From Clostridia bacterium (GTDB taxonomy: Bacteria; Bacillota; Clostridia; Oscillospirales; Acutalibacteraceae), in contig JAFSEP010000053.1 of NCBI GenBank assembly GCA_017435665.1, positions 44,852-108,851 of the forward strand: 64,000 bases of DNA, given 5' to 3'. Under the pieces are notes generated by a model. The model saw only the letters and a program-made list of their open reading frames with translations, was not told the origin of the DNA and did no database searches. The translations under genes and the position numbers were made by a program. This document shows, in pieces, positions 5,693 through 41,193 of this stretch (positions are counted from its first letter, which is position 1; every line of letters begins with the position of its first letter).

Positions 5693-5703
5693 AAATGATG
5701 AAA

Positions 5704-6158: not shown

Positions 6159-6187
6159 TTGAAAAAAGGGGGCAAAAATGATAAAAT
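6159..6187 (+). promoter_or_regulatory. Promoter of the giant secreted-protein gene
   Basis: TTGAAA (6159-6164) and TAAAAT (6182-6187) are 17 bases apart. Transcription would begin near 6194, about 188 bases before the start codon. Confidence 0.65.
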
Positions 6188-6193
6188 AATCAC

Positions 6194-6381
6194 AGTTATA
6201 GGTGTCTCTATCGGCGTATTCTGCCCATTTTTCACCGTTACATATGTGAAATCTCACAGCGCATATCAGGCGAAAAAACGCCCTATATATAAATAGTATA
6301 GGAAAACGGGCGGTAACGGCGGTATTTATATAGGGAATCCTATTTGTAAATATATACTTTTCTATCTAAGGAGGAAAATCC
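6194..6381 (+). promoter_or_regulatory. Long structured leader of the giant gene
   Basis: The untranslated leader of about 188 bases has several possible stems: TGTGA/TCACA near 6245-6258, GGCG/CGCC near 6269-6282, and a larger pairing of CCTATATATAAATA (near 6282-6295) with TATTTATATAGG (near 6332-6343). It ends in a near-consensus AAGGAGG at 6368-6374, eight bases before the ATG. I do not recognise a known riboswitch class. An unusually long leader on this gene may control stability or translation. Confidence 0.45.
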
Positions 6382-9300
6382 ATGAAACTCGGAAAGAAGA
6401 TTTTGAGTACGATTCTTGCGATCACTATGATTATCACAAGTGTTTCTGTGTGCTTCAGTTCACTTGCGGCAGATAGTTATGGCGAGACCCTCGTAAACAC
6501 AATCAATGCGCATTACGCAGGATTGGCACAATCTCTCAAGGACGGCGATGTCGATATCGACAGCGGCGTTGTAACGATTGCGCCCGATACCTACGAAAGC
6601 GGTTGGTACTCCGTTGCCAAGGCATACGCAAAGTATGTATTTGAAGGTACGGACGGCGTTAAGGTCGGTACCGTATACGATACATATCTTGCAGTGCTCG
6701 AGAAAATTGATGAGTGCGAGAACTACTACACCGACGTAGACTACGCTCAGATTCTCGAGGTGTTTGCATTTGGTGACAAGACTACCGGCAATTACAGTAA
6801 TGCAGGCACAAAGTTTGTTATTACTGTCGGTTCAGGTTATGATATCCTTGCATGGGATAGCATAGCTGAAATGGCTGCCGGTGCAGACAGAGATTATTAT
6901 CGCACTGAAATGACCTTCTCAATGGAAGGCGATGCAGGCGTTTATACTCTCGGCAACTATTCAGTCAACGCTAACTTTGACGGCTATGACCCGGACAACG
7001 AAGCAAACAAGACAATTGTTGCAGGTCTTGCAGATGCTATGCAGGATATCGTTGATCTTTATGTTGATTGGGCAGCCGGCAATGCATCAACAACAGATAC
7101 CGAAATCCTTGGTGTTTCTTTCAATGCCTTTGAAACAATTGCACCCTCTACAGGTGCAACTGCAACTGAGCTTTGGGATCAGTATATCAAGGCTAATGTT
7201 GGCGGCGTTTCTTTTGATGAGGCAAAGAGCCGTGTTGACGCAAGCATCAACAGAGATAAGATCCAGGCTGTCGTAGATCAGTACAAGCAGCCCATTCTTG
7301 ACTTGCTTGATGATTATGATGAAATGAAGAGCGCATACGACGCAGGCACAGGCGACATGAACGCTCTTGTAAAGGACAATGACGGTAACGTAAGCGAAGG
7401 TAACCTTGCTGCTCTTTATAAGCAGGTTGCAGATCTCGTTAATGCGCTCAACGCTGATGACTATGCTGTTTCAGCTCAGAACCTTATGGGTGATGTATGG
7501 ACAAATATAGTTGACAGATTTGAAAAGATGGAGCTTATGCTTTCAAGAAGATACGCAGCCTTCTATGCAGATACTCTTGCAGAGCTCCTTAACCGTGTGG
7601 TTCCCACATATGACAAGAACGACGAAGCAGCTGTTGAAGCATGGCTTGCAGAAGACAGCGAGGACAGACTTGCTGCAGAAGCTTGGATTATTGAAGCACA
7701 GTCCTTGCTTATTAACCTTGAAACAAGAGTTGCAGACCTTGACGGTACTCAGTATATCTATTGGGAAAATGAAAGTCTCGAAGAGAATCCTTATTCCCAT
7801 GTAGAAGACAGCAAGTATGCTCAGGGTTCAGCATATGCTGACGATGCAACTAAGTTCAACCGTGTAAACAAGAATGCGGTTGACGCTCTCCTTACAAAGA
7901 TAGACACAGTATCTCTTGATACAGAGGCAGGCAACTATGCAGGTATCAAGACTCAGCTTGATAACCTCATGGCTGATACTCTTATCAAACCTATGACACT
8001 TGAAGGTCTTATGGCTCATTTTGATGAGTTCCATACTCTTTACAGCAGAGCAAATGCTCTTAAGAACAGTGCAGCGACCGATAAGGGTGACGAAACAATC
8101 TTCAGACTTATCTTCGGTGACCCCGTTGATGCTCTTGACGCTTATGAAGATTGGCTCTTCGCTATCACAGATCATGCAGCTGAGAAGGCTTATGAGCAGT
8201 ATCTTACTCTCTATAAGTATTGGGAGCATGACGGCCTTGACGATAAGACAGGCACTCCCGCTACTCCCGGTATAACCTTCTATAACTACGAAGCAATCAT
8301 CAGCTATTATGAATTCGCTTATGACGGTCCCGCAACAATTGTCTGGCTGAACAGCAAATATGCTTGGTTCAATCCCACAGATGAAAACTGGACAATTGAA
8401 AAGCTTAACGAGCAGCGTGACCTTATTGTTGAAAACGCTTACGCTCCTGCAGTTGAGTTCGAAGAGGGTGTAAAGGTTCTTCGTTCAGCAACACCCGGTT
8501 CAGACGGAAGAGTTGACAAGGCAATCCTCAAGCAGCTGTTCTCCTCAACAGGTGCTGGTGGCTACAAATTTGTGTCAGGCATTGTTAACCTTGACTGGAG
8601 AATTGTTACAGACTATGTTAACAATATCGCTGTTATAATGAAGGACGGAAGCCCCTCAACAAAGAGCGATGCAGAGGTTAAGGCATTACTCGGTGGTGTT
8701 GTTGCAGCACTTGACGATATGCTTTCATCTGAGGACCTTGGTATTGTTCTTGACTCCATTATGGCTTCAGGCGCAACCACAGGCGGTCTCGGTAAGGCTG
8801 CTTACACATTCCAGTATACAAACCACAACGGTCAGAAGGTAACCGTTAAGGCCGATGACGAGATTGAAACCATTATTGAATGGCTTCTTAATATGATCTA
8901 TAAGATCCTTTACGGTGGCACACTTCAGACTGTTATTATGGGTCTTTACGGAATGCTCGGTGGCGTTCTCTCTACGGAGATAGGAAAACTTATTAACTCA
9001 ACTATTTCTAACGGTGACGTACTCATTCTAAACTTTATCAACGGTATGTTACCTCTGTATCCGCACTTGTTCTCACAGAAGTCTGTAAAGGCTATCCGTG
9101 GTGGCGGTTCAGGTCAGCATAGATTCGCTTCTGAACGTTGGGCAAGACTTTTCGGCCCCATTTCAGGCGGCTCAGCAGCTTTCACATGTCCGGAAATCGG
9201 CGGCACATTCAATTATCCCATAGTGGCTGCTGCGTTTGATGCTATTCCGTATACAGACGTATCAGCTAAGCCTCCTGTACTTTCGGCATTTAATGTGCAC

Positions 9301-12300
9301 GCTTCATCGTGGGATGGCTTGGATACAAGCACGTGGAACGCAACCTTTAATGCTGACGGTACAGTAGATGACCATGGCGCATGGCGCATAGGTATTAACG
9401 GTGCTAACGCAACTGCAACGCAGAACAGAAACGATTTCCTCAGATCTATGACCGCATCAGGTGGTGCGCTCGGTTACGTTCTCAACTGTCTTCTTTCTGG
9501 TAAAACATTGGCTCCCACTCTCGATCTTGGCACGTTGGGTGCATCTATCGGCGTTGCTATCAAGGTTTCAGATGATGGATTGCTTTCAATTTATGACAAC
9601 CTTGTTCTTCCTCTTTTCAATCTTTTAGGTATAACAGAGGGTGTCATTCAAACTCCGGATCTTCTGACAACAATGAACAATTTAGGTATGTCAGATCCCC
9701 TTATGTCAACAGATGAAAGCGGTGACCAGACTAAGTTACAGCAGCAGACAACAGCATCATATTATGTATGGAAGGCTATATTTAATCCCATACTTAACTG
9801 GTTAGAAAATACTCTTGCAGCAAATCCGGTTGCAACAATTGTTCAGTTACTTCCTAACCTCTTAGCGGCAATTGAATATAACCAGATTTTCCCGAAGATT
9901 GCAAACTGTGGTCTTGCACTTTATATTACAGATATTGATATTCTCGGCTTTATTCCTATTGCCGGTCTTATCTCACAGCTCAAAAATGCTCTTTACGTTC
10001 TCCGTGTCGGTGACCTTCTTGGCGACCTCCTTCTTAACAAGATGGGTCTTACCTTCGAAAACGGTCTTGACGGTCTGTTGACCGGTGGTGTAACCAACGA
10101 AGCAGGTCAGTATATGACGGGTCTTCTGGGTCTGAAGAGAATCGAAGCAAAGCCCACGATTACGGCTGATAATTCAGGTCAGTATCTTCTTACCTATAAG
10201 GAGAATATTCCCGTTGATGCAAACGGCGAAATCATTTATGATAATGAGGTTGATTCAAAGACGGCAGTCGGTACTACAAAGAGTACTAACTGGAATACCT
10301 CCTCAAAGCAGAGTGCTACCGATAATCCGGATTACCGTCCCTATATTCAGGATGGTTGGTATTATCAGTGCGGCGGTCTTGCTCAGACAATCGCTAACCT
10401 GGTTGGCTTTGAAACCTATCTGAACTTTATCGAATGGTACAAACGTGACACCTTTGCAGGCAAACCCGGTACAGGTAAGTCATATGTTTACGGTAAGTTC
10501 CCGCTTCACATCCCTGTTAACAGACTTATTGCTCAGGGTACGGTAATTCCTGCTAATAATGCAACATATTCATATCTTGACAGAAATAATAACAGAGTAT
10601 ACTCATATCACATCAACGTTGACAACGGTGCACTTCTTCTCACATTGTTCCGTTGGCTCATGGATGACGGCTTCATCAACCAGATCAAGCCTCTTATTAA
10701 CCCGCTTCTTCTGAAGGATACCGATAATGACGGTGACCTTTCAGATGAAGTTTCAATCCTTGACACAATCGGCGGCGGCCTTGCCGGTATAGGTGACTAT
10801 GTTGCAGGTATTCTTATTGCACTTCTTAACGAATACCTTATTGAATATATTCCCTATCAGGATCCCATGACATCATATATCGACGATACAAACAATGACG
10901 GTGACTATGCAGACGGTATTGCAGGTCTCTGGCTGTCAACAGGCGGTTTCAGCGTAAACGAATACCTCAGACAGTATCTCGGTATCAATAATCTCAGCGA
11001 AACAGAAAACGCTGAAACATATAACGCAATCGTTGCTGACAGCGCAACATATACAGCAAACAACAAGTTCAATGCTGAGGATGCTTCTATCATCGCTCAG
11101 GCAGACCTTGCAGTTGCAAACCTTGACAAGATGATCGGCGGAGCTATCCCCGTTGTTCTCGACCTTCTCGGTCCCATGCTCGGCGACCTTCTCGGCGGCA
11201 TCCAGATCAACGGTCAGGCTCTCTTCCCGGCTGATTTTGTTGAGCATATGTTTGACGGTGTTAAATCCCTTGAAGACGTATTCACAAAGATCGTTCTTAA
11301 CAAGGAGCTCTTTGACGTTCTTATGAACCTTCTTCTCGGTACTAAGACAACAGACGGTCTTATCTCAAATCTCCTCGGCTCAGGTGACGAAGTCATCGTT
11401 AAGGTCGGCGAGGTTAGCTACAGACAGTATGAATACACTTCAGGCACAGAGACCAAGTACCTTTACAAGGAGCTTGATGCAGAAGGCAACGAAAAGGACG
11501 GCTATTTCGAAATCACAGAAAAAGACGGAACTCAGGAGGTTAAGTCAGCATCTGCTCCTTCAGGTGTTCAGCTGACAGCTTCTGTTCCCGGCATTGGTAT
11601 TCTTGACCAGCTCTTTGAGGCTTTCAAGAACCTCGGTATTGATATTACCGTTGCCGGCTTCTACCGTTCACTCTTCGGTCCTCTCAGCAACACAGGCGAC
11701 CACAAGGCAGGCTCATTCAGCGAAGATTACTATGCTTACAATGAGAGTGTTGCTAAGTTCTGGGAGCTTAACGCTGACCACTTCAACGGCAGTGTTGTAA
11801 GCACACATGCGAATGTTGCAACAAGAGCTAAGGCATATATTGCAGTTCTTGAGGAAATGACACTTGCTGACCTTTATGCTCCCACATATGAGGAAGGCTT
11901 CGAGTGGTTTGACTATGACGGTGCAACAGCAGAGGCTAAGTTCGAAAGCCTTGTTGACACACTTCTTTCATTCCTCACACCTATAAACGGTATTTTAGGC
12001 TTCTTACTTTCAGGCCAGAATATCACACTTCTTAACGCTCTTACTCTTCGTGGTAATAAGGGCTACTCACGTGCTATCGCTCCCATTTTCGAGGCTCTTA
12101 ACCTCGGTCTTACATGGGGTGACACAAACAATGACGGTGTAGTTTCACAGGCTGAATATGATGCATATTATATTGCAACTCCCTCTTCAGCTTCACAGAG
12201 ACTTACAATTTACAAGGAATCTCCCCTCAAGGAAGTTCTTTACACAATCGGTGATCTCATCTTCGCAGAAGAAGGCTTTATCAACAGACCGATTTCAACT

Positions 12301-33300: not shown

Positions 33301-36300
33301 GTAACAGAATGGGATATCAATGAAGTTAAGGTTCTCCTCTTCGTACTCAAGACAGTTCTCAGTGAAGACACAGTCAACCTCATCGCTGACCTTATCGGCG
33401 TTGATATGACTAACACAGATGACCTCGTTGTAGGTATCCTCGATGCAATCGCAACTAACCCGAATGCTCAGGACGGCTTACTCGACATCATCACACTCAT
33501 ACTCAACAAGTATCTTGTTAAGTATGAACTCATCAGCGGTGAAGAACTTACCAAGATTGAGCTTAATTACAGCGCATTCGGTATCATCACCGATCCCGTT
33601 GCAGCTCCCACAGAAAAGGATGCTGTTAACAACGCAATCGCAAAGCTTGACGTACTTCTTGCAAACGCTCTTGACGTATTCATGGGTAAGGATCTCAAGA
33701 CAATCGTCGGCGAGCTTCTTTACACAGACAGTCTTGCAGTAATGCTCGTTGAACTTCTTGTTCCGATGCTTGCAGGTCTCGAAGCTAAGAATGATGCAGG
33801 CAAGTCAACAATGGATACAATCGATGAAATCCTTGTTCTTCTTGAAGACTTCCTTGCATTCAACGGCGAAGCACTCAACATCAGCCTCCACGCAGATGCA
33901 TGGGCAGGCGAAGGCGTATTCGGTAAGTTCGTTGGCGACGCTAAGACATGGACAGAAGTTCGTGAAGCTCACTTCACAAAGGACGGCGACACATACAAGC
34001 TCAACGAAGGCACAACATTCGGCATCAAGGATGCAACAACTCTTGTTAACTTCGTAAGCGAATTACTTCTTCCTGTTGACATCGTACTCGAAATTCTCCT
34101 TGACGGCGGCGTGCTTGCATACAACGGCACAGGCGCAACAAAGGGTGACAGAATTGAAGGTGCTTACGGTAAGGCACTCTCAGTTCTCGAAGATATCAAT
34201 ATCTTCTTCGGTAGCGGTTATAACTACGCAATCATTCCTCTCCTTGAGGCTCTTGGTATGACAGACGTTATGACTCAGGCTGAATACTCAGCTGACGCTG
34301 CTGCAAACGGACACCTCAAGGCAATCCTTACAATGCTCCTTGGTTATGTTGATACAATCCTCGGTGCACCGGTTGATTCAGTTCTCGGACTTCTTGCAAA
34401 TCTTGCAAACTTCGTAGCAGCTGACGGTCTTACAAAGATCGTATCCAACCTTATTGCTCCCATCAACACAATCCTTGAAATGGTTGACGGCGTTCTTCCC
34501 ATCGCAATCATGATTGATATCACTCAGATCGGCGTAGAAGGCGGCACAGTTCTCAACCTCTTCCTCGGCAAGAAGCATACAGGTATCCCGACAGGCGTAT
34601 CCATTGATCTGAGTGCACACGCAATCGAAGGTCTCCTTAACGGTCTCCTCGGTTCAACAGGTCTCGAAATCGACCTTGACTTCAACAAGCTCGCAGCTCA
34701 GTCAATGAAGTCAGGCAGCACACCGACAGCTTCTAAGGTTGACGTTAACTATGACGAATCAACCGGTGAAGGTACACTCGGTGTTGTTGAAGGCGATAAC
34801 GCAGACACATTGATCGCACTTCTTCAGACTGTTGTAACAACTGAAAATGTGGAAGCAATTCTTGATATGGTTAAGCTTGACCTTTCAACTCTTGATCCCG
34901 AACTTCAGACAGTTATCAACAATGCTCTTAATAACACTGATGCTCTTGTTGGTATCGTTATCAACATCATCAACGGTTACTACGATGTAGAAGGTGTAGA
35001 CTTCCTGTTCAAGTGGCTCGGTGACACAAGCTATGATTATAACGGTCAGTATAATGACTGGGATGACAAGGCTAACCTCACTATCAAGAAGCTCGACACA
35101 ATCATCATCAACCTTGCTCCGTCACTTCTCGGTATGTTCATCGGTGCAGATGCTGAAGGCATCCTTGCAATCCTCAGAGATGCAGCCGCAGAAGAAGACG
35201 CAACACTCGTATCAATCGTTGACGCAGTTCTCAACGGCTTCGTATTCAACGATGATATGATGACAACAATCATGGGCGCTCTTGTTCCGCTGCTTGCAGG
35301 CCTCGATGCTGATACACTTGACCTCATCGGCAAGCTCGTAGCACTTGACCTTGCTCCGCAGACATTCGCTAACGGTGCTCTCAAGGCATACATCGGCGAT
35401 GCAAAGACATGGGCAGACGTTCGTGATGCACGCTTCACTGCAAAGACAGAAGGCGAGACAACAACCTATACTCCCAACGAGTATAAGTGGAACATCGACA
35501 GCCAGGACGACTTCCTTGACGTAATAGCTGATCTCCTTGCTCCGCTTTCAATGGTTCTTGACTTCTTCCTCAAGGGCGGTAACCTTTCAGTTCTTGAAAG
35601 CGTATCACTCAAGGGTGCAGAAGGCTTCACAACAGTTCTTGTACCGCTTGCAAAGGCTCTCGGTCTTGAACTTACAGCAACTCAGGCAGACACAAGCGTA
35701 ACAATGATAAGAGATCTTGTTGAAGCTCTCCTCGCATTTGTAAGAAACGACATCTGCAAGGCTCCGCTTAACAGCGTTCTCACACTCCTTGGTAACTTGT
35801 TCTACTTCGTTGCTAACGACGGTGTAAATGCTCTTGTACAGAACATCCTCGCACCGATCACAGGCTTACTTCAGACAGCAGAAGAACTTGTTGATGAGGA
35901 AGCTCTCAATAAGATTCTCAGCGGTCTTACAAAGGATGTTGAGGCACTCAAGTCAATCTTCGGTGACGAAGGACTTACGCTCACAGGCATCAAGAATATT
36001 GCAGGTAACAGAGGCGACGCTCTCGTAGCTATCGTTAACAACCTCCTTGCAGGTATCGAAATCACTGATAAGAACGGCAACAAGGTTGAACTTGCAAATC
36101 TTCTTCCTGAAACATTCTTCTTAGATATTTCTAAGATTGCTATTGAAGAACTCACAGGTCCCGCAGCAGACCAGGCATGGAACAAGTCAACAGCAACTGT
36201 TTATGAAACAAATGTTGAAACTTGGGATGTGAACGTAGCATCACTTCTTATGTATGTTCTCCAGACTGCTCTGAGCGACGACATCATTGAGCTTCTCGCA

Positions 36301-39300
36301 GGTCTCATCGGTGCTGACCTTGCAGGCGATGACCTTGTAGCAGAAATCTTCAATACACTCCTTGACAGCGATAATGCACAGGATCTCATCCTCGACGTAA
36401 TTATCGGTCTGTTCAACGGCTACGACGTAGCATACATTCCTGTAAACGGCAAGCTTATCGAGACAGGTACTCACTTCGACAAGCATGAAAATTGCGAAAT
36501 CGCAGACAGAGAAGACGATATCAATGCTCTTACAGGCAACATCGACAGACTCATCAACAAGGCAATACCTGAGGTATTCAACCTTCTTGAAGAAATGGGT
36601 ACTATCGACAACATGGAAGCAGGCGCACTCAAGGATATCCTCCTTCAGATTGCAGCTGACGAAGATGCAACAGTAGCAAGTGCTCTTGACCTCCTTCTTA
36701 ACAGCTTTGTATTCACAGCAGATATAGCCACAACAGTTGGTAAGGCTCTCATCGGTCTCCTCGGCAGCGGTGATCTTGCTGAAACAATCGCAACAATTCT
36801 TCCGATTGCTAAGAGCGCAGCAGGTCTTGACCTTGCTCCCGCAGCATTCGTAAGAGCAAACGGCGGCGCATTCAGCACATTCATCAAGAAGGCTATCGGT
36901 GATAAGACTGACGCAACTTGGGCAGACGTATATGCATACGGCGAAGCTAACGGCTATGACTTCAGCAGTGTTAAGGATGAAAAGACATTCAAGGCACTTA
37001 TTGAAGACATTGCAACACCGCTCAGCCCGATCCTCGAATTCCTCTTCTTAGGTAAGGACCTCAAGCTCCTCGACTATGAAGTAGAAGGCGAAGCAGGCGT
37101 AACAAGCGGTATCACCCTCACAGGTGTAGAAGGTTATGATCAGGTTCTCATGCCGCTTATCGATGCACTCGGTCTCTACGATGCATCTGCAGCAGATAAC
37201 ATCATAATCTCAGCAGCAGAAGCTAAGGAAACAATGAACGGTGCTAAGTTCCTTGTATACTTCATCGACGTACTTCTTTCATTCGTTGATGACCTTGCAG
37301 AAGCTCCGGTAACAACGCTTCTTAACAAGCTCGCAGGATTACTTTACTTCGTAATCAGCGACGGTGTATACATGATCGCATCTAACCTCGTATCATTCGT
37401 TGACGGCTTACTTGCTATCACAGACAGCATCACAGGTGAAGAAAAGCTCAGACTTAACTCCATCCTCGAAATGCTCAACCTCGGATTCAGTCTTGAGACT
37501 CTCAAGATCTCCGGTCTCCTCGAGATGCTTGACGGAGAAGGCATGCTTAACGGCAAGCTCAAGGAAAACGGCATTACAGTTGAATTCATCGAGAAGCTCG
37601 TTGGTTCATGCGGTGATTACGCAATCGTTCCTTCACTCCGTTCAGACGCAACAGATGGCCTCTACAATAAGGACGGCGAGCTTGTTAACGTAACAACAGC
37701 CGGCGTTATCAAGACAATCGTAGGCACACCCGCAGATACACTCATGGCAGTTCTTGAGTTCGTATGTGAACAGGGTACACTCGAACTTCTCTTCGGTAAG
37801 AATGTAGAAGATATGAGTGCTGATGACATCATGAAGGTACTTATAGAGAACCTTTCAGATCCGATGGCAGAAGACTACGTAGTAGAAGTTATCCTCAAGC
37901 TCTTCACAAAGTATCTTGTAGAATATCGCTTAGTAGGTGCTACAACACCTCTTGCTAAGGAAGAACCCCAGTTCACTGAAAGCTTCAGTAAGGAATATCT
38001 TGAAACATTGATCGGTCAGATTGAAGAAGCTATCGGCTCAGCTCTTGCTAATGTCGAAGGCGGCTCACTCAGCTCAATCATTTACAACTTACTCCTTCAG
38101 GATTCTTACTTAGACGAAATTATGAAGTTACTTCTTCCGTTACTTCGTGACAACGAAGCAATGCTCACAGATATCGTAGGTTATGTAAGTGCATTCACTA
38201 ACCTCGAAATCGACCTTTCAGTTGAAGGCTTCAGATCACTCGCAAGAGACAGCTTCTTCAAGGCATACCTCGGTGATGCTAAGACATGGGCTGAAGTTGC
38301 TGAATTACACAACCTCAGAACAGAAACAATAGTAGATCCCGAAACAGGCGAAGAAAAGACAATTACTCTTATCGACGCTTACGATTGGAACATCACAGAT
38401 GCTAAGAGCTTCGTTGACAGACTTGTTGATATGCTCAGACCTCTCGATGACGTTCTCCAGCTTCTCCTTATCGGTGGTACAAAGCGTGAAGCATTCTATG
38501 CAGACGGCACACACAACGGTCAGTACATCAGCGTTCTTGATGAACTGAACATCATGGGTGGTAGCGGTTACAACTACGCAGTACTTCCGTTACTCGAAGC
38601 ATTCGGTATCAGAAGCGAAGCAATTCTTACTCAGGATGAATACATTGCAAGAGTAGAAGCAGACGGCTCAACACTCAAGTACATCCTCTACACAATCGTA
38701 GAAGCACTTGACAGAGTTCTCGGTTCAACAACTCTTCTTCAGGATCTCCTCGGTATCTTTGCTAACCTTGCACACTTCATTTCAAATGACGGCTTGACAA
38801 TAGCTGTTGCAAACCTTATCGCTCCTGTTAATGAGCTTCTCACAACAGTCGGCAAGGTATTCCCGATTTCAATCAGCATTGATCTCAAGAACATCAATAC
38901 TGAAAACGAAATCATCAACTTCGCTCTTGGCACAGCTAAGGCTGAAGACGTAGGCATCAAGATTGACCTCGACGGTGCAACTCTTGAAGCATTGATCGCA
39001 AGTCTCCTCGGTGAAGACTCAACAATGAATATCAGCTTCTCTGATATTGCTAATAAGACAGTTAAGACTGACGCAAACGGCAACATTGTTTACAAGGCTG
39101 TTAACTCAGAAATCGACTTGTCATATGACGAATACACAGGCTCACTTTACAGACGTATTGAAGGTGACGCAGCTGATACAGTAATGTATGTTCTTGACCT
39201 TCTCGGTGCAGGCGATCTTGACCTCGGCGGTATGGATATCGGCACAATCATTGACGCAGTTATCAACCTTCTTGCTAACCAGCGTGAATACACACCGATC

Positions 39301-41112
39301 CAGAACCAGAAGGTTAACCCGAACGGCGAAAAGCTTGGTGCAACATACGGAACCTACATTTCAGAAGCAAACGTTAACATCGTTGTAGATAACCTCGACG
39401 CAGTTATCTTTGACATTCTTGAACTTGCAGGTATCGGCACACTCGAAGATCTCCTTTGCGGTATGCTCGCAACCAATGCAAACATTAACTCAATTCTTAA
39501 CCTTGTTGTTGGATTACTTTCAGATAACAGCGACCTGATTTCTCAGCTTCCTGAGTACATCGGAATGGCCGCAGGTATCCTTGGTGAAGAAAACATCAAC
39601 TTTGGTCCTGAATACACCGGATTCCTTTCACTTCACGATGCAGAAACAGGCTATGGCTTCTATGATCAGCTCTATGCAGTTTCAGTCGGCGAAGGAAATG
39701 CAACCACAGGAGTTAACTACAAGCAGGGCGATGTAACATTCGCAAATGCTCTCAAGATTCTTGCTAAGGCAGAAACATGGGCAGATCTCGACAACACCTC
39801 ATTCACAAATTGTGATTGGGGCTTCAAGGATGGCGATCTCCACGGATTCCTCCAGGTAATCGCTCAGGTACTCACACCGCTTAACAACCTTCTCGGCTTG
39901 TTCTTATACGGTGATCCTGATAACCCAATTATCAATGCATTTGATATTCTTTCAATTGCAGGCGGTCCGGGCTATGACTTCGCAATCATCCCGCTTATGG
40001 AAGCACTTGACATTAACTCTGTACCGACAGCAGCTCAGTACGTTGCAATGATCAACGGTGAGGCCGGCAGACAGGTATCAATCGGTGGCGTAGCTTACAG
40101 ATCAGGTCCCACAGCAGTTCTCGGCACAGTTCTTACAATGCTCGAAACTCTTGTAATGGATCTCTGTGAATCACCCACAGATACACTCCTTACTCTCCTC
40201 CCGAACCTTGCATACTTCCTTTCAAATGACGGACTTTCACTTGTATTCCAGAATCTTATCTCACCGCTTTACGGTGTACTCTGCGCACTCAACGCAATCC
40301 TTGGTCTCGGTATCCCGACCAGAATCGAACTTGAACAGATTCTCCACGATATCGACCTTGGCACATGGGTACTCTGGTCATGGCTTGATCTCAAGATTCC
40401 TGTAATCGATTGGCTCGACTTCGCAAGAAAGGGCGCAGCTTCAATCACAGAAAAGAAGACATCCAGAAGTGAAGCAGCTTGGTCTTACAGCAACCCGACA
40501 TTACCGCTTTACTATACTGACAATGTAATTACTCAGTATATCGACGGTGAATACACAACAGAAGGCATCAGCAAGGAAACAAAGTCAACTCAGACTTATA
40601 TCGTAGCTGATAAGGGCGATATGCTCGTAACACTCCTTCGTTGGGTACTCGACATCTTCAAGGATGAACACAACCGTAACGCTCTTACAGAGTGGCTTGC
40701 AGGTCTCTTCGGACTTGAAGCAGGCGGTAAGGAAATCGTCAGATTCGCTCTTGACGAAATGTTCAAGGTAACTGATGCAGCTAATGTAAACGATGCAATC
40801 ATCGGTGGTATCTTCAGTGCCCTCGTAGCATTCGTTGCAGTTGATGCAATAGTTAAGGATAGATACGACTTCGTACAGAAGCTCCTCAACGATATCTTCA
40901 CAGAGCTTGAGAAGTGTGACAGCGATTGCTGGTATGCAAACCTTGCAGACGCAATGCAGATCTTCACAGGCTGCTGGAAGCAGACTATCGGTACTGATGA
41001 TGACTACCACGATACAACAGATAAGGTTGAAGAGAACCTTAGCTGGTGGGAGAAGTTCGTCAAGGCTATTAAGGACTTCTTTGCAAAGATCGCAGCTCTC
41101 TTCAAGTTCTGA
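6382..41112 (+). CDS. Giant modular secreted repeat protein of 11,576 residues
   Basis: An uninterrupted frame of 34,731 bases. Residues 1-31 are a clear signal peptide (MKLGKKILSTILAITMIITS..., likely cleaved after SLAA), so the product is exported. Residues 32 to about 1100 form a non-repeated, acidic, mostly helical region. From about 1147 to 11,300 a degenerate module recurs about 18 times. Its best-preserved parts read like LLAPLxPVLxLLLxG, YNYALxPLLEALG, LLGNLxxFVANDGLT, NLIAPINxLL, WAGxGxFGxxIG with TWxEV, and LTxENVxAILxMLDVD. Tyr/Val-rich cassettes interrupt the modules, and three DxDxDG loops lie near residues 1446, 1502 and 1914. No LPxTG motif, S-layer domain or final membrane anchor is present; the protein ends WWEKFVKAIKDFFAKIAALF-KF, an amphipathic tail. 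Cysteines are very sparse. Codon choice (AAG, GCA/GCT, CTT/CTC, AAC) resembles the ribosomal protein genes nearby, suggesting strong expression. I recognise no family; a surface fibre, adhesin or helical solenoid is inference. Confidence 0.93.
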   Translation: MKLGKKILSTILAITMIITSVSVCFSSLAADSYGETLVNTINAHYAGLAQSLKDGDVDIDSGVVTIAPDTYESGWYSVAKAYAKYVFEGTDGVKVGTVYDTYLAVLEKIDECENYYTDVDYAQILEVFAFGDKTTGNYSNAGTKFVITVGSGYDILAWDSIAEMAAGADRDYYRTEMTFSMEGDAGVYTLGNYSVNANFDGYDPDNEANKTIVAGLADAMQDIVDLYVDWAAGNASTTDTEILGVSFNAFETIAPSTGATATELWDQYIKANVGGVSFDEAKSRVDASINRDKIQAVVDQYKQPILDLLDDYDEMKSAYDAGTGDMNALVKDNDGNVSEGNLAALYKQVADLVNALNADDYAVSAQNLMGDVWTNIVDRFEKMELMLSRRYAAFYADTLAELLNRVVPTYDKNDEAAVEAWLAEDSEDRLAAEAWIIEAQSLLINLETRVADLDGTQYIYWENESLEENPYSHVEDSKYAQGSAYADDATKFNRVNKNAVDALLTKIDTVSLDTEAGNYAGIKTQLDNLMADTLIKPMTLEGLMAHFDEFHTLYSRANALKNSAATDKGDETIFRLIFGDPVDALDAYEDWLFAITDHAAEKAYEQYLTLYKYWEHDGLDDKTGTPATPGITFYNYEAIISYYEFAYDGPATIVWLNSKYAWFNPTDENWTIEKLNEQRDLIVENAYAPAVEFEEGVKVLRSATPGSDGRVDKAILKQLFSSTGAGGYKFVSGIVNLDWRIVTDYVNNIAVIMKDGSPSTKSDAEVKALLGGVVAALDDMLSSEDLGIVLDSIMASGATTGGLGKAAYTFQYTNHNGQKVTVKADDEIETIIEWLLNMIYKILYGGTLQTVIMGLYGMLGGVLSTEIGKLINSTISNGDVLILNFINGMLPLYPHLFSQKSVKAIRGGGSGQHRFASERWARLFGPISGGSAAFTCPEIGGTFNYPIVAAAFDAIPYTDVSAKPPVLSAFNVHASSWDGLDTSTWNATFNADGTVDDHGAWRIGINGANATATQNRNDFLRSMTASGGALGYVLNCLLSGKTLAPTLDLGTLGASIGVAIKVSDDGLLSIYDNLVLPLFNLLGITEGVIQTPDLLTTMNNLGMSDPLMSTDESGDQTKLQQQTTASYYVWKAIFNPILNWLENTLAANPVATIVQLLPNLLAAIEYNQIFPKIANCGLALYITDIDILGFIPIAGLISQLKNALYVLRVGDLLGDLLLNKMGLTFENGLDGLLTGGVTNEAGQYMTGLLGLKRIEAKPTITADNSGQYLLTYKENIPVDANGEIIYDNEVDSKTAVGTTKSTNWNTSSKQSATDNPDYRPYIQDGWYYQCGGLAQTIANLVGFETYLNFIEWYKRDTFAGKPGTGKSYVYGKFPLHIPVNRLIAQGTVIPANNATYSYLDRNNNRVYSYHINVDNGALLLTLFRWLMDDGFINQIKPLINPLLLKDTDNDGDLSDEVSILDTIGGGLAGIGDYVAGILIALLNEYLIEYIPYQDPMTSYIDDTNNDGDYADGIAGLWLSTGGFSVNEYLRQYLGINNLSETENAETYNAIVADSATYTANNKFNAEDASIIAQADLAVANLDKMIGGAIPVVLDLLGPMLGDLLGGIQINGQALFPADFVEHMFDGVKSLEDVFTKIVLNKELFDVLMNLLLGTKTTDGLISNLLGSGDEVIVKVGEVSYRQYEYTSGTETKYLYKELDAEGNEKDGYFEITEKDGTQEVKSASAPSGVQLTASVPGIGILDQLFEAFKNLGIDITVAGFYRSLFGPLSNTGDHKAGSFSEDYYAYNESVAKFWELNADHFNGSVVSTHANVATRAKAYIAVLEEMTLADLYAPTYEEGFEWFDYDGATAEAKFESLVDTLLSFLTPINGILGFLLSGQNITLLNALTLRGNKGYSRAIAPIFEALNLGLTWGDTNNDGVVSQAEYDAYYIATPSSASQRLTIYKESPLKEVLYTIGDLIFAEEGFINRPISTIVNLLPNLFYALYSYPEFEWVWSGSAWVQEPVMATDAFGNEIGQARTNNLAAAVKNLIRPVSELLENVDPVLSRFINLNLDELLDEFLNLENTLNDAVGGLFSSAAARKSQTIGGTTYNEYTYKDVLGETVTVYVALDATTGEELMDVAFYSLVNGTMRPTTVPLGTQLKAEYESELRIFDFASLAATSAFVYEQKLSARPANPGSADSDTSTFTHFTSSPGMVLITLFRSILSTEALDSIASMLLTTLTKEGTMDELSEEEYKRYENIINGIVGRLTEVVKTAEGAPKGQRVDLVTSILISLLTDYMVDDPYAYFYELQGNPAVGGSMSNDWKEKYAMVHTGHDWESTEEYFTKDKVEDAISNLDYVIANAVPGVLTSLVDNNVLSMDLFEGVELSEDAVLMDLLEDVVMKNVFTDDIMTVICSAIARTFGGLGSTGDIIFGLLGELGYDVSAEGYLFNDDGSQTPFYSFLSYGYDSITLNADGSVTAKIGGKDAEVTWAQVAENHRKLTVDGETFDVLMFNDEGQVQYIGANNNNVYVNTQVQAVDKDGNPVVDEDGKAVMAVDTEGNPVYTVQLDEIPSQNVIRIPAYTKTVAVSYDPVTGEKIETVTYEAVKYTDWTVTFDADDKAVYTPVEKTAYKVINPDNLSDDDKAYLEEIGMEIPEAVNAGWDWGLANAGNTFEAKKAKFVEIHWTMIQPLEPIFRFLLLGEDLVFFDGLRIVGINGYQTVILPLLRAFGLEEAIDNIPTEDSDRFLNVYPGETDARAYDHLMTFEEYKGYCEDYGMGVAMEEIVDQILLLVRLVATYPVSTLATAIPTLVYFILGDGAVSLIENLLLGLTTLTNRLQEIVSIRINTIGAGLIEALAMSDWTNFQNALMSYTGFNEDGTLMDEATNVVELNLTDTILKVLAGIEFQLKAATETEAAVMAGIYSFTETYSADQEAWLVQDATQGLDAEEDADEIAKISKDVKQTYRAEHIKELLKQIAGLGDDTADDSEGDGYVDISATGQVSVSPGEFFIWLMKFLTNNTTIINLLGDLLGYDLSYTEGASREDMFTGKEGDELSPLLDEILTMAIENPEGLVDLIVSIFTDYEVDKVTPVSFTASSIGETHYPFAENEAEEDEIDLSGTISRVQVALATDNLNLVINNVLDMLKDMLTGEEGLIDFVEFAEGEEVTLRTIINKVFAEALYNNESFNEIIVMLVELLGSGEEGEADIISVVLDILADSGMNLTPQSVLAAAEATLTADYAAKALENFEALIGDSTKWSEIIKKAEFIGPSEENVNVVYNKVDEKTNEDGSDATTVEKFTFEVLTYKLPVLEDGQQKVDADGNKVFTEPVTVWKNGDKYYAPVGVQDGEEAGVHFATADPFATEVTIPEGAVIENVKEELQNQFVLNFDWGFEAGITKEAMDANKALLSDILWTLLSNLRPVLELIMIGGKLTVFDKIGIKGFEGYAGVFYPLMIALGFDTFKTEAVLRTTVDDLGQTTTTTVIDEEGNTVLRVMTAEELEEYSEETNGRALLDAVLNIIFALVDALADNPIKAIETLLPGLAYLIDSGALDTIIGNLLKPLTALVVKLDEIFAVDLMGLIKNFLGNLVTENIELLPKKGEGDATDAAAFAAAATAQDALNTIEGTEADVNNGTDEGTDIDVSDFITPVALDDTATGTEEGEEKEEAETKGLSLMDIIDMLRAENAPTLTIKEILMQILRRVTINGTQLTTILGGEDIFQRLGSCAWFEGSSMDIVTEKAKLEETPTIAHRVADVYTADKETVLLQIFNWIVFSEDIKALLVELLNIDMSEKAPVQKTTELSVTTGEGEEAVTTKTTYNEYKYTVTVDGAETDVIVYKALDAEGNELEGYFTIADGKATATTVPADATVIAVYLPETFDIATLLPDLLNYIFESPEGVEELLIDLLSWYDLDYADVRFDLGELELDNEIVVDYDKVGVSKEDIEQLPAEVDELISAAIPVLLSVFGGDLGDMMNVEITGTTATEVVNELVAGLLTDEMLNGLIEMLVKAIGSETVSPILDYVKIAGIDLSPAAFANGATSALGDILTYEEDGETKAYANWAEVEKAYAETVNATEKIKFNEADEAETEVEIWAVEVDAVDENGDVILDDEGNATKTTVTLYKTADGKFYEKKVTLATETVPAKTEYVETEIDTTDAVVTTTKVYTKLYDTKWNVTNVGDVFAILVDILAPLGALMNLVMFEEDLVLLDGITITGGDGYDRGLVPLFEMLGIGAIASKYEMLYDIGLAEDGSLDVRAVLDEFLSYIWDAEDNWDNVTGDEVPDGKADGWLNHFLESPFTVLFTLIPNLSFYLYTGELRQAMEQILAPVITLLNNVERAVGIDVVGDLLMPLIVPDAKDTSNFLVKAFGTDRIAATKTLEDLFGLFLTAEGLETIIYSLVDNTTIDDEEVEITLPDNLFKTLVEKTAVVTDVRTFRFFGAEYEDGSDAHATYQEWLRLYTEPEDNETQATIEDFEDSDDAVRVIEGVQVDFAATVVYILGDLLFGGEGEGILVPILDGFGVMDDPTVAGIIEGITGDNKYVVLQVLVNYFMHYDVESQVVEYLSFAKVDYDYNLLADTWLGGKRKIRKSLNKLDKGISTLVPTILQMLDTDNIEILKNFAVNDSSTLQDLVDHVLGQFVTDEMMNDLLGLLIGLLAENGEMIDGLVDIIEMAAGVSLAPIDFLNAIEEASGTSGKFYNFLANAIQGVPQNPVEGEPVARVTWADVGAALGGAYVDFSTYAYTTNLVVVTRDDNSTVTYEAYKYKNAEDADVVVYKLGDSYYASTAANAEALTFADGVPAMTAAETEYTVYQVAGNDTTWYAQVGGDIATVPAGVTPEKVEVIYTVTTGEGEAAVETEYTTWTYETVDANDTTQTVKHTIYMDGEGKYYKLNGETLEETEVPNDVTPVKSYAGGTKYVLDLNTVYANYWGINAAVGTEAKLDAFVAPITELIAPLDVVFGLLFKGQDLEILPAESGAGVIDIKAGDGGYEYGLLQLFIGLGFDSLGIDLVSGAEYKADQTLTLSAIVDPIIDFVYELCENPVQTLLTVLGALSYFIASNGLQTVLENILKPVMGLLDVAEPVLGPIINDLIANTLSPILKPIFGKDFATLSDITGLAGETGDELAALLNSLISGLIVEKDENGQATQIFQIFKSTFFEDYAAAAINAGTPVDGDDTLYYYWYEKTDAEGNVEIVKISSEEYKLSGETGKIVKQAYMVNSQFDILNINWKVDVVDAYIFLLSYVLSEDVLAVICDLAGIDLNDEENIVATIIQSVIDTDDPGLVLADILATLLGQYTVTTNDFVGDQIIIEDKTPYAEGPTDAEIEALPGQLDSLILDNLGTILDIVADLIDLSAAPEMLTDLIDKYTADTMPADQVTVENIVNDLLVDLVYTDELVGSLMGMLVGLLGGENLAGTLATVLPLVKDLAGIDLAPAAFATGDGKIATLIKAVPASDAEAGVTWADVYNYYKADYETTYTVYTYKNAEGEDVTVYELGGVYYAAKGDTEAAVLPEGVTPVVKTEDVLDADGNATGEKQNVTEAYFDLTAAADWIEEGAELESFKAVFAELLTPLAPVVNFLFKGESLKIVEFKEGWYNDDYNDSVEGDKGFDPDTEAEIENYANNGVTTSTSDDDLSYALIELKGATLYSDVFVPLFSSMSVFDDHTFKSESALAALDTAGLVDEIFDIIYVLIDAIAAGPIEAILSVLPGLLYFIGSDGISLIANNLLAFVTPLLDAIEPLVSVTDLLNGLLGTEFDSINALVDSYVTADNLVALINGLIPADEEGKKAFELEEGIFLTLAAAMADEATSRPFAAAALEGDKAEDGVRYTKVRGTNVTILRGLLEYVLSDALIGKLLNIDTSAMKDITVGNGIVSIQLKAIVDNLLAALKTPAATQGVLNVLVELFNSYKVGYQVLEGTAPAKVAIGYGTDLKSTEAEVENLVAGLDSIIDQVFAKGIIADLITDEELKANATSIEALISSFLYTDDLAVMLVELLVPMLAGLETKADGAEKSTMETIDEFLPMISDLIKISGNALTLNLHADAWAGNGAFGSLIGEATTWTAVRDANFTLTTAEDGSESYKLNEGTTFGIDTADELVDFICELIAPLESVLNLIILGGELQVLAVEGEDKTDGISLTFGSMYNYAILPILEGLSVDAPAAKDATLRTVLTAILGLVDDVCDAPIATVAQLLTELFYFISIDGLSVAVENLIAPIVKILEAVELIAPVNVTVDITKLDLASLLAPKAEGEEAEGEETTATPVDPVVSIAPATETSVNVNLDGDAIIALVEGLAASFLGAKITLDIDGFLAKAIAGSAPSKVVTADTAFDTSDATKTWAPVVTADTADALVALIATILSPANVKAIMGSELITKLDLKSLGDFEPVVKAVLAYLGTDAGSDVGYDVIDLLVALVSGADVELLIADQKKYAAVDPIPYESADLEASSDEVNALFAELDTLIAKVVESGLLSKFDLGIELKGATVKEIVLGLLFGEDALIDVAGLIVPAIVGLFAGMETPNDEGKTTLDTIEPIFGYVKDILGIELTLDIDAWTTGSGAFATLLATVEAGLADGEELTWTAVKTYLDSQMVQATEKNEAGETVGKTNADGTPVMVNGYDFGITNTAGLVDLIADLLAPFNSVIALLMNSDALTAFADDDFAGLNIKLGHAYNYALVPLLEAFGVTNIPTADSIKAGAYEGEYLRAFLSALIGYVENVVLATPLSSVVNLLGNLVNFIASNGLTVVITNLIAPINALIKVIADIVPVSAEIDLDKLDIASLLAPKAEGEEATTEAEPIFKVSEDGKTISILDGVVAINLCDKAVATGIALDLSDAKLEKIITDLINSLLKLEDADKLANPFIDFSVLAQYAIAGKTSTTSVVATDADDRINGTTGGSMGVYDVNKGDMFVALLTSVLTPDMIDAILGMLDIDTMLAEADDMVYGIVTNVVEYLDEADAETAEGVVYGLIDLLVDLFNVYTVGLTVTDQTLTGATTSAVQNAGLESTEAQIEEAITKIEALLPQILELTGLVEEGQGLAGLVTGLIYSDNIADALIPALVNAFAGMETVAEGAEKSTMATITEIFGYVKDVTGIELSLDVSAWAKGDGMFATLIGDAKSWSEVKTVIDAKMVQVTEKNEAGVEVGKVDAEGKPVMAYKLGLGVDTKAEFINLFCEIAAPFAPIINVLFVGSDDKADLEAFETIGLEFGQAYNYVIIPLLEALGIKNVPNVAKVEADFDGDYVRAILTTALDYVDVVLAAPLTGVVNLVGNLANFVANNGLTSLVLNLIAPINELLVKLDKVVPIAIDIDLGKLDLATLLDGSMAFAVEFDNATETLRILGETVVVYLAKEYTDLSAGVNLELGAETLESILVAAIAGLVKDIDLDLSGLSFTAIASQFIAGKASLGTSVVTGDAIGINSKAEGAVSLGVYSGNVANTLVEFLNEVITTKNVDAILEMLDVEKMLADANLDPALAEVINDVLDYIAHGDKPVGAALIDFIVTFFAEYTVDLEIIDQVVAAASTIKYDQADNSTGLTSSNAEVNDLITKLDAILSSGILTTLGVLEEGKTLKSLVTDLIYSDAIADAIIPALVNAFAGMEVKDEETGEVSMGSLEDTLAMIGDIIGIEINLGTDAWAGTGAFGTLIGTSATWTEVKAKIDAKLVQETEKNEAGEEVGKVGEDGKPVMVYKLGLGIDTKAEFIGLIDEIAAPFAPVINLLFLEDQKLTAFGPDGVALSMGSAYNYVLIPLFEALGITTVVKPDVENGVSCVAALLTTVLDYVEALLTSNTVHGAVNLLGNLANFVANDGLTVFVSNLIAPINELLVKIGAIVPLTAKVDLEKLNLADLIGGTEEGEEAAPIFAYDEEAKALTILDGVIAVQAGTGVAADATLGLDLDLSDVVLEGLIDQLVEDVLPTLVEGLNLKIDLDFSKLAAEALTGATWLGTAVEVKDGDTKHSDGTAYSADNTFNSIGVYDINEANLLVSLLTMIVTSDNINAILDMIDVDAMIAEMEDGMVKDILTDVISYLETNAKDTLVYGLVDLLVGLIAENYVDFIIVENTAVTGKQNVTYSSELTKDDVTSALSKLATVLNNALPVFDINLSTLVSDNLYTGEMLATIVNALAGLFAGMETTAYTYSVVEDGETVEKTAYAKDGKYYSDEACTTELGADVTVTETITMGSVDGILDTVADLVSIGDKPLNIDLGVQAWADTAILGAIIGDAKSWKDVSFTAESFGEVDKAKFINVIADLVAPFDAVLGLLFDGGAVKTSGTYGNSLNAVDAVTVNFGSGYNYAILPLLEGLGIKGLKTQDEYREYSEDNGYIKYILEAVLGYVDTVLADPINGAMALVGNLAYFLANDGLSAFVTNLIAPINTLIKAIDSIIPVAVFINLEGLNFTNEVNAETGKKEFKVDASELLKLYIAVDHEGIPAGLSVNLNAATVQDLVDKLLTALELDLNINLDFAKIAAQAAAVDADGNISVEASKLDSKWDNAIPADGESLGVLNVDSADMLMALLQMVLTSENVEAILGMLDVDLEQLITDANLGDDVTPILIDAINRAVEDPMNLIAVVVKIINGEFSVNGTEFVLKFVGNKEYDYNGHYTTANGYAEGEWETLANGDIAALDRIIVKFVPTLLDMLAEGENAAQILKDLAALEAGEGQNNITVILDYFLGEYVIKNDTVDMVVGALVPVLAGLDADTMDIIKSAVGLDLAPTSWAGEGTFGKFVGEAKTWAEVRDAHFTATTEGETTTYKFNGYDWKVTDTDTLLAIFEELLNPVSYVLDFVLTGGSITVFGTIDGNGVMADDGITLTGIKLYDNVLAPLATALQLDLANNTVANATSAQKLIGFVKALLAYVYDDVAASPIKAVLELVGNLSFYIANNGLNNLIDNVLAIVDGLLALVSSILPAEDVDKLLSGLTKDVAIIGDIFGADGLTVAGIRNIAGNNGDGIIKILNTFIDDITIGDKQVNLANIIPETFFLDLAQVVVEEIEPDEDTLTDTDKFVTPVTEWDINEVKVLLFVLKTVLSEDTVNLIADLIGVDMTNTDDLVVGILDAIATNPNAQDGLLDIITLILNKYLVKYELISGEELTKIELNYSAFGIITDPVAAPTEKDAVNNAIAKLDVLLANALDVFMGKDLKTIVGELLYTDSLAVMLVELLVPMLAGLEAKNDAGKSTMDTIDEILVLLEDFLAFNGEALNISLHADAWAGEGVFGKFVGDAKTWTEVREAHFTKDGDTYKLNEGTTFGIKDATTLVNFVSELLLPVDIVLEILLDGGVLAYNGTGATKGDRIEGAYGKALSVLEDINIFFGSGYNYAIIPLLEALGMTDVMTQAEYSADAAANGHLKAILTMLLGYVDTILGAPVDSVLGLLANLANFVAADGLTKIVSNLIAPINTILEMVDGVLPIAIMIDITQIGVEGGTVLNLFLGKKHTGIPTGVSIDLSAHAIEGLLNGLLGSTGLEIDLDFNKLAAQSMKSGSTPTASKVDVNYDESTGEGTLGVVEGDNADTLIALLQTVVTTENVEAILDMVKLDLSTLDPELQTVINNALNNTDALVGIVINIINGYYDVEGVDFLFKWLGDTSYDYNGQYNDWDDKANLTIKKLDTIIINLAPSLLGMFIGADAEGILAILRDAAAEEDATLVSIVDAVLNGFVFNDDMMTTIMGALVPLLAGLDADTLDLIGKLVALDLAPQTFANGALKAYIGDAKTWADVRDARFTAKTEGETTTYTPNEYKWNIDSQDDFLDVIADLLAPLSMVLDFFLKGGNLSVLESVSLKGAEGFTTVLVPLAKALGLELTATQADTSVTMIRDLVEALLAFVRNDICKAPLNSVLTLLGNLFYFVANDGVNALVQNILAPITGLLQTAEELVDEEALNKILSGLTKDVEALKSIFGDEGLTLTGIKNIAGNRGDALVAIVNNLLAGIEITDKNGNKVELANLLPETFFLDISKIAIEELTGPAADQAWNKSTATVYETNVETWDVNVASLLMYVLQTALSDDIIELLAGLIGADLAGDDLVAEIFNTLLDSDNAQDLILDVIIGLFNGYDVAYIPVNGKLIETGTHFDKHENCEIADREDDINALTGNIDRLINKAIPEVFNLLEEMGTIDNMEAGALKDILLQIAADEDATVASALDLLLNSFVFTADIATTVGKALIGLLGSGDLAETIATILPIAKSAAGLDLAPAAFVRANGGAFSTFIKKAIGDKTDATWADVYAYGEANGYDFSSVKDEKTFKALIEDIATPLSPILEFLFLGKDLKLLDYEVEGEAGVTSGITLTGVEGYDQVLMPLIDALGLYDASAADNIIISAAEAKETMNGAKFLVYFIDVLLSFVDDLAEAPVTTLLNKLAGLLYFVISDGVYMIASNLVSFVDGLLAITDSITGEEKLRLNSILEMLNLGFSLETLKISGLLEMLDGEGMLNGKLKENGITVEFIEKLVGSCGDYAIVPSLRSDATDGLYNKDGELVNVTTAGVIKTIVGTPADTLMAVLEFVCEQGTLELLFGKNVEDMSADDIMKVLIENLSDPMAEDYVVEVILKLFTKYLVEYRLVGATTPLAKEEPQFTESFSKEYLETLIGQIEEAIGSALANVEGGSLSSIIYNLLLQDSYLDEIMKLLLPLLRDNEAMLTDIVGYVSAFTNLEIDLSVEGFRSLARDSFFKAYLGDAKTWAEVAELHNLRTETIVDPETGEEKTITLIDAYDWNITDAKSFVDRLVDMLRPLDDVLQLLLIGGTKREAFYADGTHNGQYISVLDELNIMGGSGYNYAVLPLLEAFGIRSEAILTQDEYIARVEADGSTLKYILYTIVEALDRVLGSTTLLQDLLGIFANLAHFISNDGLTIAVANLIAPVNELLTTVGKVFPISISIDLKNINTENEIINFALGTAKAEDVGIKIDLDGATLEALIASLLGEDSTMNISFSDIANKTVKTDANGNIVYKAVNSEIDLSYDEYTGSLYRRIEGDAADTVMYVLDLLGAGDLDLGGMDIGTIIDAVINLLANQREYTPIQNQKVNPNGEKLGATYGTYISEANVNIVVDNLDAVIFDILELAGIGTLEDLLCGMLATNANINSILNLVVGLLSDNSDLISQLPEYIGMAAGILGEENINFGPEYTGFLSLHDAETGYGFYDQLYAVSVGEGNATTGVNYKQGDVTFANALKILAKAETWADLDNTSFTNCDWGFKDGDLHGFLQVIAQVLTPLNNLLGLFLYGDPDNPIINAFDILSIAGGPGYDFAIIPLMEALDINSVPTAAQYVAMINGEAGRQVSIGGVAYRSGPTAVLGTVLTMLETLVMDLCESPTDTLLTLLPNLAYFLSNDGLSLVFQNLISPLYGVLCALNAILGLGIPTRIELEQILHDIDLGTWVLWSWLDLKIPVIDWLDFARKGAASITEKKTSRSEAAWSYSNPTLPLYYTDNVITQYIDGEYTTEGISKETKSTQTYIVADKGDMLVTLLRWVLDIFKDEHNRNALTEWLAGLFGLEAGGKEIVRFALDEMFKVTDAANVNDAIIGGIFSALVAFVAVDAIVKDRYDFVQKLLNDIFTELEKCDSDCWYANLADAMQIFTGCWKQTIGTDDDYHDTTDKVEENLSWWEKFVKAIKDFFAKIAALFKF
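10717..12156 (+). other. Three EF-hand/dockerin-like calcium loops
   Basis: Within the giant protein, DTDNDGDLSDE (10717-10749), DTNNDGDYADG (10885-10917) and DTNNDGVVSQAE (12121-12156) match the DxDxDG calcium-loop pattern. The third is a full 12-residue EF-hand-type loop with Glu at position 12. They lie singly in turns between helices, not as a paired dockerin. All are in the first two modules and I saw none later. Calcium binding is inferred from the motif. Confidence 0.55.
11400..30830 (+). repeat. Tyr/Val-rich cassettes inserted in the giant protein's modules
   Basis: Short segments of about 30-70 residues with a common style interrupt the helical modules at differing points: YxxYxYKxxxGxxVTVYxxxDGxYY, then DAxGN and a VPxxVxxxxVY end. 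Clear examples lie near 11405-11590, 12630-12830, 13830-14230, 16150-16460, 17735-17945, 18600-18830, 20545-21070 (about three in tandem), 21840-21990, 22740-22950 and 30680-30830. Shorter forms with TEKNEAGEEVGKV-type sequence lie near 26070, 27690 and 29275. They look like beta-hairpin or beta-sheet inserts. Their absence after about 31 kb explains part of the shorter module spacing there. Confidence 0.6.
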
Positions 41113-41162
41113 TAGCAAATCGGTAAAACGAAAAGCTACCAAAGCGAATTGAACAAAGTTCA

Positions 41163-41193
41163 CCCCCGTTGTCCTCGGACAACGGGGGTTTTT
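41163..41193 (+). terminator. Strong terminator of the giant gene
   Basis: CCCCCGTTGTCC (41163-41174) pairs perfectly with GGACAACGGGGG (41177-41188), followed by five Ts. It lies 50 bases after the giant-gene stop. Confidence 0.92.

Follow-up and report, generated by a model that had tools for sequence, protein, structure and literature searches.

An 11,576-residue exported protein of an uncultured Clostridia bacterium, a candidate surface-tethered stalk built from divergent modules and ending in a portable amphipathic tail

Very large proteins are known from bacteria, and in the part of a survey of huge bacterial proteins drawn on here most of those above 5,000 aa are placed at the cell periphery or membrane, with the largest reported proteins being mentioned from Omnitrophota (PMC11573180). 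The extracellular proteins Giant1-5 of Apilactobacillus kunkeei, as described in the cited part of their report, measure 3,000-8,000 aa and carry N-terminal beta-solenoids in Giant1-4 (PMC12863079). Two further systems concern the C-terminus: the LPXTG/sortase proteins, which in the cited portion of the source combine a signal peptide with a short C-terminal retention signal (PMC12445088), and the pestivirus protein Erns, exported and, in the section cited, anchored to the membrane by a C-terminal amphipathic helix (PMC3937272).

The protein described here is encoded by a single gene within the window, that is, the whole stretch of 64,000 nucleotides that was analysed. It exceeds 5,000 aa as the huge proteins of the survey do, and no size record is claimed for it, but unlike those in the part of the survey used it has no NRPS, PKS or known extracellular domain and is genus-conserved, not strain-specific (PMC11573180). 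With the A. kunkeei giants, so far as the cited part describes them, it shares the character of a very large secreted surface protein of a host-associated bacterium, but it belongs to another family and, judged from one modelled module, consists of an array of helix-and-strand modules (PMC12863079). It resembles LPXTG proteins in its signal peptide and, by inference, in a short C-terminal retention signal, but has no [LNISVQ]PxTG anywhere in its 11,576 residues (PMC12445088). Its tail may likewise form a membrane-anchoring helix as in the Erns account excerpted here, with the difference that one tail is common to many unrelated proteins; no relation is claimed (PMC3937272).

The gene occupies positions 6382-41112 on the plus strand (34,731 bases) and comprises 11,576 codons from an ATG start to a single terminal stop. 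A preliminary description made from the DNA alone had called it real and complete, and the open frame, codon usage, flanking signals and orthologous giant frames all agree. From the gene's base composition a stop-free run of 11,576 codons has a random probability of 10^-274, the longest stop-free run in the other five frames over the gene is 268 codons, and synonymous codon usage correlates with that of nine neighbouring genes at 0.80. The protein has a computed mass of ~1,245 kDa and a net charge of about -1170, and its leucine content of 12.2% bears out the earlier remark that it is Leu-rich. The gene is repetitive and its source is a MAG, both of which would suit an assembly artefact, but we consider such an origin very improbable indeed: repeat collapse is unlikely because no exact repeat within the gene exceeds 25 bp, identity in the 30 best-scoring module pairs is only 37-57%, orthologues occur in MAGs of several series, and the gene is collinear with that of genome G027 and under purifying selection.

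The following sites flank the gene and appear to frame it, together with a ribosome binding site, as its own transcription unit:

5700-5728: upstream terminator-like site (sequence pattern)
6159-6187, plus strand: promoter-like site TTGAAA-17-TAAAAT with extended TG (sequence pattern)
6191-6384, plus strand: conserved 5' leader up to the ATG (orthologue alignment)
41162-41189, plus strand: intrinsic terminator-like site, 12-pair stem and T run (sequence pattern)

The signal peptide, ribosome binding site, promoter and terminator announced earlier were thus each located, the promoter as a promoter-like site, of which the same 801-base stretch holds 4 against 2.8 expected by chance. In orthologues a -10-like box lies at the same place upstream of the conserved leader as in the window. 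The leader, conserved across 11 aligned giants, contains GTTATAGGTGTCTCTATCGG at 6195-6214, an TATAGGGAATCCTAT element and AAGGAGG, with AAGGAG starting 14 nt 5' of the ATG, and its GTTATAGGTGTCTCTATNGG core adjoins the presumed transcription start. A 20-base leader core (at most 2 mismatches) was found in 18 of 39 genomes, namely 17/24 of the genus and 1/15 others, only part of these matches being checked for position before a giant; a reversed control pattern gave one match. It mostly occurs once per genome, with two copies in G003, one per giant, and a second copy with two mismatches in G005. The leader has no match in Rfam, and RNAalifold gave weak structure support (-1.84 kcal/mol). It may perhaps serve specifically to regulate the giant gene.

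Within the encoded protein the following parts were recognised, all on the plus strand and the modules placed by profile:

6382-6471, plus strand: signal peptide (MKLGKKILSTILAITMIITSVSVCFSSLAA, residues 1-30; cleavage position assigned by eye)
6472-8661, plus strand: N-terminal region, residues 31-760, the least conserved part, 33% to G027
8677-9903, plus strand: module 1 (partial), residues 766-1174
10618-12612, plus strand: module 2
12964-15174, plus strand: module 3
15334-17367, plus strand: module 4
17965-19599, plus strand: module 5
19783-21816, plus strand: module 6
22003-23736, plus strand: module 7
23821-25311, plus strand: module 8, approximate start of the expandable middle (also from giant comparison)
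25339-26949, plus strand: module 9
27004-28503, plus strand: module 10
28591-30114, plus strand: module 11
30214-31752, plus strand: module 12
31798-33276, plus strand: module 13
33316-34761, plus strand: module 14, residues 8979-9460 (modelled 33316-34794 with AlphaFold2)
34795-36207, plus strand: module 15
36229-37575, plus strand: module 16
37729-39156, plus strand: module 17
39235-40494, plus strand: module 18, last and positionally fixed (also from giant comparison)
40495-41034, plus strand: C-terminal domain, aligned in 17/17 giants compared (alignment)
41035-41109, plus strand: cationic amphipathic C-terminal tail of ~25 residues, NLSWWEKFVKAIKDFFAKIAALFKF (alignment, profile, hydrophobic moment)

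Each of the 12 giants whose 5' end is complete starts with a signal peptide. Cys24 of the window giant follows Val and is replaced by Ser in the orthologues of G002 and G015, so that there is no lipobox and no conserved lipobox cysteine after the signal peptide that would mark a lipoprotein. For residues 31-760 no repeat, no PDB sequence match and no Pfam match above the cut-off was found. An iterated profile places 18 divergent modules, 17 of them nearly complete, over residues 766-11,371; the conserved part of a module is ~480 residues long, insertions occur in several, mostly in the first half of the array, and the 18 segments score 38 to 354 bits against a profile built from giants, the window giant included. 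The AlphaFold2 model of module 14 (pLDDT 85.8, pTM 0.82) shows helix with some strands, so that the protein is predicted to be helical, as first described, though not purely so. The further suggestion of a solenoid finds no support, the repeat being a ~480-residue unit of mixed helix and strand in this model.

Neither Pfam nor NCBIfam, searched with the whole giant in pieces, gave a family above the cut-off, which leaves modules and tail uncovered and upholds the earlier view that the protein belongs to no recognised family; a match of the modules to a described family, named beforehand as the finding that would count against that view, was likewise absent above the cut-off in both libraries. 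Condensation, adenylation and ketosynthase domains of NRPS and PKS were lacking above the Pfam cut-off over the whole length, as were adhesin domains (Big, InlB, LRR, TED and the like) in Pfam and NCBIfam, and no PDB match was found for the module. Judged by these searches, the module appears to define a domain family for which the libraries searched offer no described relative.

Comparison of the giants shows how the array has evolved. The 12 with complete 5' ends have 13-18 modules each, and in 132 directed comparisons modules 1-5 counted from the N-terminus found their best match at the same position 132, 132, 132, 132 and 131 times, N-position 6 124 times and N-position 7 94 times. Counted from the C-terminus, the last module did so in 132/132 and positions 2 to 7 in 105, 98, 74, 54, 44 and 56. 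The array is therefore old and fixed at its ends, with a middle that grows or shrinks from lineage to lineage. The nearest orthologue, that of G027, has an equal number of modules and 49% identity overall, the value increasing along the chain from the N-terminal region (33%) towards the C-terminus (61%); dN (NG86, five parts) is 0.30-0.71 and dS 1.57-2.31, the latter near saturation. This N-to-C gradient of conservation and the fixed ends would fit a chain rooted at its C-terminus with its N-terminus exposed.

Such giants were seen in one genus. A one-piece search of 59 genomes (34 of the genus, its own included, 2 of other genera of the family and 23 of the order outside the family) gave matches in 34/34, 1/2 and 0/23, respectively. 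Frames above 8,000 aa are present in at least 16/34 genus genomes, and giant frames of 8,291-11,501 aa in at least 15 genus genomes other than its own (at least 16 genes); the 16 orthologous giants examined from 15 other genomes measure 7,900-11,497 aa, some with incomplete 5' ends. The idea of a one-of-a-kind gene was rejected on finding these orthologues in other genomes of the genus, and the giant is a member of an old gene family, no singleton. The G003 bin holds two different giants, C21 and C108 (10,186 and 10,010 aa), which are either true paralogues or the product of a mixed bin. In G033, a 97% complete genome of the genus, the module profile matches only three times, within frames measuring 890 and 1,204 aa, so that a giant is not a feature of the whole genus. 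The C-terminal profile found 17 loci in MAGs labelled Clostridia, Oscillospiraceae, Ruminococcaceae, Ruminococcus or Clostridiaceae, ten of them with roe deer, sheep, goat or water buffalo named in the label; relatives of this uncultured bacterium live in ruminant guts.

The module itself reaches further. Its profile has members in 24/150 genomes of the bacterial family (19/135 genera), in a class-wide draw of 391 genomes a single weak match (E 9e-4, with an internal stop) came to light besides the own genome, and an order-wide draw of 197 genomes with a single-sequence query yielded the own genome and two others; the module is therefore essentially a trait of one bacterial family. Frames above 8,000 aa with the module were seen only in this genus, the longest elsewhere among the matches listed being 4,285 aa.

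The C-terminal end of the giants is their second distinctive feature, and it changes the earlier statement that the protein has no anchor domain, as the chain ends in a portable cationic amphipathic tail that would serve for tethering. Each of the 17 giants closes with a helix-like stretch resembling ESLNWFQRLIKKIKEFFQKIFSIFK, with a hydrophobic moment of 0.61-0.89 and a charge of +3 to +5; internal segments of the window giant have a moment of 0.32 +/- 0.10, and 0.6% of them are as amphipathic by this measure as its tail. Within the tail, the core residues L, W, I, F, F, K are invariant in 17 rows, with W replaced by F in two further giants. The tail profile matches 34/34 genus genomes at E<=1 and 32/34 at E<=1e-3, the best match in the other 25 genomes having E 0.067. 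The structure model of the C-terminus is of low confidence (pLDDT 46.8).

The same tail is found on other proteins. Among 20 non-giant matches to its profile down to E 3.6e-7, 17 were read, and all 17 tails lie 0-5 residues from the stop; in 16 of these proteins both a crude rule and inspection by eye indicate a signal peptide at the start, the remaining one being cut at a contig start. Three weak matches read from the own genome lie 13-17 residues from the stop. Nine tail proteins were scanned for domains, seven of the 17, all belonging to relatives, and two that the own genome encodes; the scan revealed InlB repeats (2), a TED thioester domain with Big_2, CotH and BspA-type LRR (2), the rest being a CxxC-repeat protein without a family above the cut-off, an esterase-like own-genome protein with a Cys-flanked tail and one without a match; no model covers the tail in any of the nine. 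A tail scoring at least 5 bits ends 4/26 neighbours with a signal peptide and 3/132 other neighbours, and is found in 0/130 internal segments (19 loci, 3 picked for module proteins). The three positives without a signal peptide look like mis-started or truncated exported proteins, and with 4/26 the tail is therefore common, not general. A second tail type, with cysteines on both sides of the aromatic amphipathic stretch (CxCDCH ... CACG), was seen in L139:3084-4130 of the own genome and L061:13081-13797. The occurrence of one tail on unrelated exported proteins suggests that these bacteria retain proteins at their surface by a means not yet described.

LPXTG and MYXO-CTERM are tags recognised by a dedicated sorting or export protein, and the tail might similarly be such a tag, afterwards cut or exchanged, with no membrane anchor at all. 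The strictness of its core exceeds the need of a simple amphipathic helix and its position is extremely C-terminal in 17/17, but the giants' tails have no cysteine, PxTG-like motif or hydrophobic span, and the looser tails of other genera keep the amphipathic aromatic pattern while losing the sequence; we regard this reading as doubtful. Nor does the giant have the combination of a C-terminal PxTG-like motif, hydrophobic span and basic end by which a sortase anchor is recognised.

The best comparative argument for a tail that holds proteins on the cell comes from smaller relatives. The module family takes three forms, ~850-residue membrane-helix proteins, others that reach as many as 4,285 residues, and the giants of one genus. 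We read 18 non-giant module proteins, selected from match lists without a random draw, to their stop codons: eight end in a membrane helix, seven in a tail that is aromatic, cationic and amphipathic (L059 and L061 of the genus; L190, L192, L193, L200 and L204 of four other genera), three in neither (L194-L196) and none in both. Membrane helix and tail thus exchange at the same place. The tails were called by eye and separated by charge, aromatics and position, the hydrophobic moments of the seven tails (0.45-0.76) and of the three proteins without an anchor (0.45-0.56) overlapping. These three anchorless members would suit a giant that is a soluble secreted or matrix protein, whose tail serves self-association or folding, and a net charge of about -1170 beside a cationic tail could allow self-interaction; as helix and tail substitute for one another and the tail terminates proteins with adhesin-type domains, we think this unlikely.

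The eight membrane-helix members are 826-915 aa long and have two modules, as judged by reading them or from their length; in the six for which profile segments were counted there are 2-3. Seven of them (L060, L038, L197, L198, L199, L201 and L203) directly adjoin a gene of ~915 codons for a MacB-like ABC ATPase-FtsX protein, one such gene being checked by Pfam and NCBIfam profiles and the others by their start sequence; the eighth, L202, has no MacB-like neighbour. The pair is recurrent (e.g. L060:3293-8632, L197, L198, L199, L201, L203). It raises the alternative that modules bind a small ligand, peptide or lipid passed to or from the ABC exporter, the giant being a high-capacity version, and in G020 a 582-aa ABC-type frame does follow 541 bp after the giant, with a membrane-helix/MacB pair 8-11 kb further on; in G009 an ABC ATPase lies 10.7 kb from the giant. 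In 14/16 giant loci, however, a crude motif scan of the flanks, several of them short, found no ABC ATPase, no ABC exporter gene was seen by eye in the window, and no second module protein was found in the own genome, and this hand-over seems to us improbable, about as much so as the soluble protein.

The reading we favour, by a modest preponderance of probability, is that the giant is a surface-tethered stalk. The gene, its export signal, the module array with stable ends and changeable middle, the gradient of conservation and the portability of the tail are shown by the data; from these comparisons we infer its retention by the tail, the orientation of the chain and a binding role. The signal peptide would carry it across the membrane by Sec, and the C-terminal cationic amphipathic helix would sit in or at the outer face of the membrane or the wall and so prevent the protein from leaving the cell. 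The fixed base of the stalk would consist of the last module and the C-terminal domain, and the middle block would lengthen or shorten by duplication and so set its reach. The first ~six modules and the fast-evolving N-terminal region would be the outer part, most likely binding an external target such as a plant particle, mucus, a neighbouring cell or a ligand. Counting against tethering by the tail are the 3/18 relatives without an anchor, the few neighbours with a tail, the low pLDDT of 46.8 at the C-terminus and the three sortase matches in the own genome, which make another anchor available. That the tail is an undescribed portable retention signal on unrelated exported proteins in a family of gut bacteria, taking the part of a sortase motif or membrane helix, and, in addition, the module a new fold, the small partner of an ABC exporter expanded to an 18-module stalk, is a larger proposition, which we hold to be quite possible but not yet probable.

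Other large exported proteins lie near the giant. In the window it is accompanied by the following neighbour:

48900-55160, plus strand: 2,086-aa exported protein with CxxC repeats and a similar aromatic end (IFGWFIRWIMSILAKLGIKF) (signal peptide and tail by eye)

A second large exported CxxC-repeat protein (55413-63998, >2,862 aa) runs off the window, and large frames with aromatic tail ends adjoin the giant in G005, G017, G019, G027 and G003. The contig of the giant also carries, ~24 kb upstream of it, a 533-aa frame with a sortase domain (G000:C43:26638-27156), and long sortase frames like it are present elsewhere in the genus.

Giant surface proteins are a known kind; the module domain and the tail are undescribed in the libraries and literature searched. 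What this giant adds is a domain family whose copy number ranges from ~2 up to 18, and a C-terminal tail common to unrelated exported proteins. If the tail is a retention signal, it would explain how many exported proteins of uncultured gut bacteria are held at the surface, and it would let annotators recognise surface proteins that are at present taken as freely secreted.
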